From Thauera propionica (lineage in GTDB: Bacteria; Pseudomonadota; Gammaproteobacteria; Burkholderiales; Rhodocyclaceae), in assembly GCF_002245655.1 (NCBI RefSeq), contig NZ_NOIH01000026.1, forward strand, positions 1 through 64,000: DNA of 64,000 nucleotides, read 5' to 3'. Under the pieces are notes generated by a model. That model was given only the letters and a program-made list of their open reading frames with translations, did no database searches and had not been told where the DNA came from. Position numbers and translations under genes: made by a program. This document shows positions 1 through 931 of the stretch, piece by piece; within the stretch, counting starts at the first letter, position 1, and each line of letters begins with the position of its first letter.

Positions 1-33
1 ATCAAGGCCGCCTTCCCCGGAAAGGCGCGATGA
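1..33 (+). CDS. C-terminal tail of a gene cut by the left edge
   Basis: The frame starting at base 1 reads ten codons (IKAAFPGKAR) and stops with TGA at 31-33. Eight of the ten codons end in G or C, like true genes here. Nothing more can be said about the product. A minus-strand terminator begins four bases downstream. The fragment is too short to exclude chance. Confidence 0.3.
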   Translation: MKAAFPGKAR

Positions 34-36
34 ACC

Positions 37-66
37 AAAAAAAACGCAGTCCGCGAGGACTGCGTT
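37..66 (-). terminator. intrinsic terminator, minus strand
   Basis: Perfect 10-bp inverted repeat AACGCAGTCC (43-52) and GGACTGCGTT (57-66) around the loop GCGA. On the minus strand it runs into eight T (A run at 37-44). On the plus strand no T tract follows, so it mainly terminates minus-strand transcription, here the candidate sRNA. Confidence 0.75.
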
Positions 67-145
67 AAATCCACACCAAAGGAGGAGGGTGGAGGAGACA
101 CCATTTGGATCGGCGCGTCGTTGTTGCCGCGTCAGCGATCCGACT
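37..145 (-). ncRNA. candidate small RNA with anti-Shine-Dalgarno loop
   Basis: Read on the minus strand, a promoter-like pair (153-181) is followed by about 109 nt ending in a strong intrinsic terminator (37-66). Three hairpins are visible: GGAUCG/CGAUCC closing a GC-rich arm (about 108-142); CCAAA/UUUGG (104-108 with 76-80) closing a 23-nt loop at 81-103 that contains UCUCCUCC and CCUCCUCC; and the terminator. The two pyrimidine repeats are complementary to Shine-Dalgarno sequences. Known trans-acting sRNAs with such loops include the Neisseria RcoF/NmsR siblings and Rhodobacter CcsR-type RNAs. No open frame explains the region. The start point is inferred from promoter spacing; no homology claim is made. 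Confidence 0.5.
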
Positions 146-152
146 GAGGCGA

Positions 153-181
153 ATTATCCTGACCACCCCACGGCCACGCAA
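153..181 (-). promoter_or_regulatory. sigma-70-type promoter of the candidate sRNA
   Basis: Minus strand TTGCGT (176-181), 17-bp spacer, GATAAT (153-158). The -10 matches 5 of 6 consensus bases and the -35 only TTG. The DNA upstream on the minus strand (about 182-275) is strikingly AT-rich for this genome, as expected of an UP element. Confidence 0.4.
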
Positions 182-438
182 GCACTATTTTGTGCAACGC
201 ACTATAAATGTTTTGATTTTCTGATAAATCCTCCTTATGTCTCGCCATAATATTGTTTTAAATCAAATTTTCGAACACTCACCTGTCCGATAGCCCATTG
301 CCACCCTCGAGGCAACCACCCGGATTCCATCGATATTGTGCACTGCATGAATACGCAGGCGTATTGAAACCGGGGCATCTGCCGATCGAGGTCAGCGCCT
401 CACGATGCGAGAGAGCGAGCAGGCCCGCGTCACTCCTG
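182..438. other. intergenic stretch, AT-rich in its left half
   Basis: No convincing gene is seen. Bases 184-275 are AT-rich, with the dyad TGCAACGCA near 192-200, which has the TGC-N3-GCA form of PhaR-type sites; this is noted only as a resemblance. The rest is ordinary GC-rich leader for the OsmC-like gene. Confidence 0.5.
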
Positions 439-511: not shown

Positions 512-931
512 ATGGAATGCACCATCAAGTGGGTTGACGGCATGAGCTTCATTGCCGAGACGGGTACCGGCCATCTCGTCGCCATGGATGGCGCGCCGGA
601 CGCTGGCGGAAGGAATCTTGCCCCGCGGCCGATGGAGCTGATGCTGGCGGGCGCGGGAGGCTGCACCGCCTTCGACGTCGTACTGATCCTCAAGCGCGGC
701 CGCCACGACGTGCGCGGCTGCAGCGTGCGCCTAGAAGCCGACCGAGCCGACACCGACCCGAAGGTCTTCACCCGGATCCGCTTCACCTACACCGTCACCG
801 GCCGCAACCTGAAGCGCGAAACCGTCGAACGCGCCATCCACCTCTCGGCGGAGAAATACTGCTCCGCCTCGATCATGCTTGGCAAGACGGCCGAGATCAC
901 GCACGAGTGCGAAATCGTCGAGGCCGACTGA
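512..931 (+). CDS. OsmC/YhfA-like family protein
   Basis: A 139-residue soluble protein of the OsmC superfamily, whose members reduce organic hydroperoxides with a pair of cysteines. The family signature GGCTAFDVV places Cys51 at the start of the central helix, and Cys117 lies in EKYCSAS; the 66-residue spacing equals that of the catalytic pair in E. coli OsmC. The motif PMELMLAGAGGCTAFDV is closest to the YhfA-like subgroup, whose physiological substrate is not settled. The start is backed by AGGAG about 10 bases upstream. Transcribed alone, convergent with coq7. Peroxide or thiol redox function is an inference from the cysteines. Confidence 0.85.
   Translation: MECTIKWVDGMSFIAETGTGHLVAMDGAPDAGGRNLAPRPMELMLAGAGGCTAFDVVLILKRGRHDVRGCSVRLEADRADTDPKVFTRIRFTYTVTGRNLKRETVERAIHLSAEKYCSASIMLGKTAEITHECEIVEAD

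Follow-up and report, generated by a model that had tools for sequence, protein, structure and literature searches.

Small RNAs of the Rfam family RF02278 (Betaproteobacteria_toxic_sRNA) have been described in Burkholderia and Bordetella. In Burkholderia cenocepacia they include ncS03, ncS05, ncS27 and ncS62, called double-hairpin RNAs (bdhR1). Overexpression of ncS27 slows growth and its silencing speeds growth, the predicted targets of the family lie in the uptake and metabolism of amino acids, carbohydrates and aromatic compounds, and in glucose medium the levels of three of the four homologues increase 4.3- to 8.0-fold; three of the four also have in common an upstream motif, left unidentified in the main text, and the paper calls the regulation of sRNA accumulation unknown (PMC5688073). 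Bordetella pertussis S17, reported to be processed by RNase E and to depend on Hfq (PMC10987360, PMC11722255), shares the conserved region that contains sites 1 and 2 and has a long form with a leader. It is said to reach a higher level in the Bvg+ mode, represses a sigma-54 regulator in an interaction where compensatory changes restore repression, and affects other genes that include transporters and paa genes, while its form S17S was not toxic in exponential Escherichia coli BL21 and later caused only modest slowing (PMC11722255). The words PhaR, PHB, polyhydroxy and phasin are absent from the main texts of both PMC5688073 and PMC11722255. In another class, Sinorhizobium meliloti MmgR (alpha-r8) is an Hfq-dependent sRNA that carries an anti-Shine–Dalgarno (anti-SD) motif. 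AniA (PhaR) represses it through a dyad in its promoter, NtrC also induces it, and it is linked to PHB and to the C:N ratio (PMC7143759, PMC8401924). PhbF, the PhaR of Herbaspirillum, is reported to bind TG[N]TGC[N]3GCAA and to repress a phasin and itself (PMC3206438).

We analysed a 64,000-nucleotide stretch of Thauera propionica (hereafter the window) whose first few hundred bases hold a locus resembling these systems (Table 1). A cmscan of positions 1–2000 matched RF02278 on the minus strand with 65.9 bits against a gathering cut-off of 50 (E 1.5e-12), end to end over model positions 1–64 of 64, and the structural features of the family are there: two hairpins, of which the second is the terminator, and CU-rich unpaired stretches. 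The first-pass annotation had proposed a minus-strand anti-SD sRNA at this place, which the Rfam match, fold, conservation and covariation support well; its statement that no named RNA was known here in Rhodocyclales falls, because the RNA is RF02278 and a homologue from Aromatoleum aromaticum has already been aligned with S17 (PMC11722255). The sRNA is real, well conserved and already named; judged by its sequence, it is a member of the described family of ncS27/bdhR and S17, not a new RNA. It shares with the Burkholderia RNAs its sequence, double hairpin, CU-rich sites and terminator, and differs from them in having a leader hairpin and a linkage to osmC.

Table 1. Features of the sRNA locus, in window coordinates.
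Feature	Position	Strand	Basis
3' end of ISL3-family insertion sequence (1–36) with probable copy of its 8-bp target duplication (37–44)	1–44	+	
RF02278 sRNA core, predicted processed or short form (anti-SD region and terminator)	36–100	-	cmscan
Predicted full transcript, about 110 nt	37–146	-	start placed from the -10 element; promoter spacing, fold z -3.27
Intrinsic terminator	37–66	-	terminator scan; helix 2 of alignment A2
Core hairpin, loop UCCUCCUUU at 78–86, anti-SD site 2 CCUCCUCC at 81–88	70–93	-	cmscan, fold
Anti-SD site 1 UGUCUCCUCC, single-stranded 5' part of core and stem foot	91–100	-	cmscan, fold
5' leader hairpin	107–141	-	helix 1 of alignment A1
-10 element GATAAT	153–158	-	sequence; loose promoter pair conserved
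-35 element TTGCGT	176–181	-	sequence; loose promoter pair conserved
PhaR-like palindrome TTATAGTGCGTTGCACAAAAT	187–207	-	0 mismatches to published S. meliloti PhaR motif
FNR/ANR-like box TTGTTTTAAATCAA	253–266		1 mismatch to TTGAT-N4-ATCAA; centre 63 bp from first dyad centre
Second PhaR-like dyad	333–353		1 mismatch to published motif; centre 146 bp from first
osmC-family gene, divergent syntenic neighbour	512–931	+	Pfam OsmC 7.9e-19

RF02278 matches occur in the T. propionica genome and in 24 of 24 genomes of the same genus (35 of 41 genomes in all), and a 200-genome sample of the order gave matches in 128 at E≤1e-3, 75 of them over the cut-off, against none of 14 controls. The sRNA core lies divergently upstream of osmC, always on the opposite strand, in 70 of 80 named osmC loci from genera that include Thauera, Azoarcus, Aromatoleum, Zoogloea, Ralstonia, Tepidiphilus and Denitromonas; one of the ten loci without it (L059) has only 275 bases upstream. 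The T. propionica genome holds a second copy (L005, G000:C56:63066-63131), with a PhaR-like palindrome over its -35 element and, upstream, a gene that weakly resembles a porin (25.4 bits against a cut-off of 27). The second copy of another genome (G015) adjoins a phasin gene, and one genome of the order (G031) has nine family matches, three of them within about 4 kb (L163, G031:C1:1642300-1646900).

The promoter pair with its 17-bp spacer and the AT-rich tract upstream of it, both noted at first pass, are present on the minus strand. A simple promoter scan did not include the pair among its calls, and the promoter is supported because it is conserved across osmC-linked loci: a loose pair, TTGY..-N16-18-NANNNT, precedes the core in 67 of 71 such loci and the stricter CTTGY..NATNNT in 57 of 71, both being patterns without a computed background. 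The sequence CAGTC, which also bears on the predicted full transcript, lies 20–66 nt upstream of the core in 43 of the 71.

The predicted 110-nt transcript has a folding energy of -40.1 kcal/mol, whereas 200 dinucleotide shuffles average -29.24 and one of them is as low (z -3.27). Its two repeats, UCUCCUCC at 91–98 and CCUCCUCC, are both complementary to Shine–Dalgarno sequences, as had been proposed; the accompanying view that both sit in a hairpin loop is right for the second and wrong for the first, which occupies the unpaired 5' portion of the core together with the stem foot. In a core alignment (A2) of 49 of 55 distinct sequences (L081, L087, L097, L099, L105 and L107 were left out by hand), site 1 is invariant and the anti-SD core as a whole nearly so. 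A terminator scan found the hairpin (43–66) and its eight T (37–44, some of them common to stem and tail) that had been read from the sequence, among four terminator-like sites in positions 1–600 against 0.5 on average in shuffles. Covariation, suggested at the outset as a check on all three stems, is clear for the terminator helix, where eight of ten pairs show two-sided changes and 99.6% of cells are paired. The core hairpin is paired in 98.2% of cells with no two-sided change, and since it hardly varies, covariation says nothing about it. The leader helix is paired in 95.6% of cells, with two-sided changes in two of six pairs, in an alignment (A1) of 30 rows chosen by their first ten bases, at least one of them visibly off by a base; this choice partly fixes the 5' side, so the leader covariation is modest support. 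No shuffle out of 500 reached the covariation score of either alignment; for A1, 78 of 500 reached the number of pair types and 12 of 500 the number of two-sided pairs.

The same alignments bear on the idea that the locus is a short peptide gene, the core following TG and often reading as a start codon and then TCT-CCT-CCA-CCC. ATG, GTG or TTG does precede TCTCC in most of the loci compared, but third codon positions hardly vary over the core, unlike those of coding sequence, and the terminator covaries as RNA; we reject this reading as scarcely credible and treat the locus as an sRNA gene. Anti-SD repeats in or near loops, as in this RNA, also characterize Neisseria NmsRb/RcoF1 and alpha-r14, and the comparison with Neisseria and Rhodobacter drawn at first pass is apt as to design. 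It does not extend to family membership: the NmsRb model (Neisseria NmsR/RcoF) scored 29.3 against a cut-off of 52, and alpha-r14 (ar14) 21.2 against 58.8. There was no alpha-r8 match among the Rfam scan results, a negative that counts only if Rfam includes that family.

The start of the window is the end of a 1312-bp ISL3-family element that abuts the T-run of the terminator; the eight T probably double as one copy of the element's 8-bp target duplication, its other end lying outside the contig. About eight T are likewise present in relatives that lack the element, and the terminator therefore looks intact. Among nine copies from three genomes (the window at 1–44, ends on contigs C23, C30 and C55 of the same genome, G000, and copies in G017 and G006; L036-L044, L160-L162), eight are flanked on this side by an A-rich run, and for seven of the nine the flank forms a terminator-like hairpin, ending at the run, whose fold beats at least 99% of 200 shuffles. 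Of the other two flanks, one gives a weak signal (p 0.08) and one does not resemble a terminator; those of G000 C30 and G006 C54 seem to be a single site, and the three complete copies have 8-bp duplications. The element apparently targets terminators.

The palindrome upstream of the -35 element, of the form GTGC-N3-GCACAAAA, is centred 51 bp upstream of the predicted start and resembles Thauera phasin promoters. It scores 23.8 on a matrix trained on Thauera phasin loci only (25 of the 31 loci supplied, six having no qualifying dyad; the phasin loci L140 and L142 of the T. propionica genome, and many further phasins, lay outside the training set). At a threshold of ≥12.4, which corresponds to 99% of 2480 Markov windows and is reached by six of 2917 real 160-nt windows, sites are found in 52 of 71 osmC-linked loci, 21 of 22 second-copy loci and 20 of 31 order loci (31 of 32 were scored in this run, the remaining one later in the phaR comparison below); the Ralstonia osmC-linked loci have no good PhaR-like site by either the matrix or the published motif, which was derived in another class (PMC12542648). 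In all 22 second copies a TTGC -35 element lies within the dyad and is followed by a -10 element, a spacing from which the RNA would start directly at the core. The window dyad is centred 16 bp upstream of the -35 element, a position that makes repression less evident than for the second copy.

The T. propionica genome has a PhaR gene (PF07879, G000:C4:84516-84695, 8.9e-31), and a scan of it with the palindrome pattern gave 14 matches against three for the reversed pattern: two of the four phasin genes and both sRNA copies have a site upstream, one match is the second window site (333–347), and nine have no evident common role. Across seven Thauera genomes, the symmetric pattern yields 9 to 23 sites per genome against 0 to 4 when reversed. 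The palindrome might nonetheless be bound by another regulator, or be a conserved A-rich, UP-like feature, the RF02278 sRNA acting in the same way and PHB having no part in it. We consider this unlikely: similar palindromes occur at phasin loci and in 12 of the 29 phaR promoters scored (30 loci were available; 17 of the 29 fall below threshold), and there is a match to a motif published for PhaR in a different class. In its favour, the right half, GCACAAAA, is by eye the best conserved piece and could serve RNA polymerase, and the phaR promoter of the T. propionica genome itself has no strong site, scoring only 5.0 on the phasin matrix.

If PhaR binds the palindrome, the palindrome should be absent where phaR is absent though the RNA stays. 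PF07879 and RF02278 were each searched in the 200-genome sample, and at the level of genes they co-occur weakly (94 genomes with both, 34 with the sRNA only, 42 with phaR only and 30 with neither; Fisher p 0.04); we do not use this as support, and it implies that the RNA can exist without PhaR. Two sRNA matches about 1 kb from phaR (L317 and L318, in G097 and G141) have no palindrome; neither reaches the Rfam cut-off, and both have unusual-looking cores. We scored the upstream regions of 92 of the 128 sRNA-positive genomes, 65 with phaR and 27 without; each genome was represented by a single locus, picked ahead of scoring, and most of these loci stood high in the score list. The core of the S. 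meliloti motif, which by itself occurs in 430 of 2917 background windows, was present in 55 of 65 phaR-positive and one of 27 phaR-negative genomes, and by family in 20 of 22 against one of 11, family being the only level at which kinship was handled and three families falling in both sets. The full motif at ≤1 mismatch was found in 41 of 65 against one of 27, with nine such matches, and none without mismatch, in the 2917 background windows. The phasin matrix concurs: 37 of 65 against two of 27 loci pass the threshold, family medians are 13.6 (22 phaR-positive families) and -2.6 (11 phaR-negative families; p 6e-5), and 42 of 65 against two of 27 reach p≤0.01 relative to 200 shuffles of each locus.

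That the core is missing from 26 of 27 phaR-negative genomes in which the RNA persists argues against a different regulator or an UP-like role; that ten of the 65 phaR-positive loci, those of G097 and G141 among them, are without it argues the other way. In G151, the one phaR-negative genome that has a site, phaR may only seem to be absent, since this genome is 85% complete and the two other sampled sRNA-bearing genomes of its genus have the gene. By the motif and phyletic tests, the prediction that PhaR controls the sRNA is a strong one.

A PhaR site between two divergent genes could also mainly serve osmC, or another divergent promoter, with the sRNA a mere neighbour, and the second dyad, which is nearer to osmC and has a fixed spacing, speaks for this. 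Among the 56 of the 71 osmC-linked loci that have a first dyad, a second dyad core occurs at exactly 146 bp in 23 and at 144–148 bp in 31, against 0.08% in shuffles, and the 110 bp between the dyads are 41–52% identical to the window in nine loci compared; the osmC-linked loci are related, so these spacing counts are not independent. FNR recognizes the consensus TTGAT-N4-ATCAA; a box within one mismatch of it is present in 25 of the 56 loci, against 0.7% in shuffles, and 23 of the 56 have their best FNR-like match centred at +63 bp. This arrangement was not seen in the other sRNA loci compared. The 146-bp spacing suggests helical phasing, and perhaps a DNA loop between the two dyads. Against a site that serves osmC stand the Thauera second copies, which carry the core and an overlapping -35 element in 22 of 22 loci, and the sample of the order, where the core is upstream of the sRNAs themselves in 55 of 65 phaR-positive loci; we regard this possibility as still more improbable than binding by another regulator, and take the sRNA promoter to be the probable object of PhaR control.

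Candidate targets were sought in the T. propionica genome with the pattern GAGGAGACA-N2-9-ATG, which gave 18 matches in 17 genes, the reversed-pattern control giving none. The genes encode four TRAP DctP proteins, one DctM permease and two other solute-binding proteins; a phenol hydroxylase, a catechol-2,3-dioxygenase-like protein, a PQQ dehydrogenase and a thiamine-diphosphate enzyme that we take for aceE; and a Phenol_MetA_deg protein with five others. By our own grouping of Pfam names, 12 of the 17 belong to transport or catabolism. A control pattern, GAGGAGMAM (four related nine-letter words together), gave 22 matches against three when reversed, of which we take about 11 to 13 for real starts; seven of its proteins, by Pfam, comprise four catabolic ones, one porin, NnrS and an ABC-2 permease. 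The GAGGAGACA genes, TRAP transporters prominent among them, fit loosely with carbon uptake and catabolism, the control genes being partly alike, and we claim no significant target enrichment. Within the window, GGAGGAGAC at ≤1 mismatch has 12 matches against 16.6 expected by chance, which gives no extra target sites there.

Taken together, we think it likely that the locus encodes a trans-acting RF02278 sRNA that blocks uptake and catabolic mRNAs by anti-SD pairing and is transcribed from a predicted PhaR/PHB-controlled promoter. The RNA would start near 146 and end at 37, and its leader hairpin, to judge from S17, would probably be removed by processing just before UGUCUCCUCC. Its two CU-rich sites would act as mimics of the 16S rRNA 3' end and mask the Shine–Dalgarno sequences of many mRNAs, and the translation of uptake and catabolic genes would fall, as is shown or predicted for relatives. 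As PHB granules form, PhaR would leave the DNA, phasins and the sRNA would be made, and with the sRNA the cell would cut further carbon import. The anti-SD design and predicted input of this RNA parallel those of MmgR. A limited literature search found no link between PhaR and the RF02278 family, and what looks new here is the likely presence of PhaR sites at promoters of this known family.

More tentatively, and with the odds somewhat against it, RF02278 sRNAs could be a main RNA output of PhaR in Betaproteobacteria, a storage gauge that shuts carbon-uptake translation in parallel to MmgR in Alphaproteobacteria, and in the osmC-linked locus a PhaR loop over 146 bp (about 14 helical turns) with the FNR-like box inside it could join PHB state and oxygen. 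RF02278, a widespread family, owes its name to toxicity. The PhaR link, if true, would give it a physiological input, carbon storage, that fits the output reported for Burkholderia, namely lower growth when overexpressed and a higher level in glucose medium (PMC5688073); it would be directly testable in ordinary PHB-forming strains, and an anti-SD sRNA would then be under PhaR control in two classes. It suggests that full carbon stores may switch on a brake on carbon uptake.
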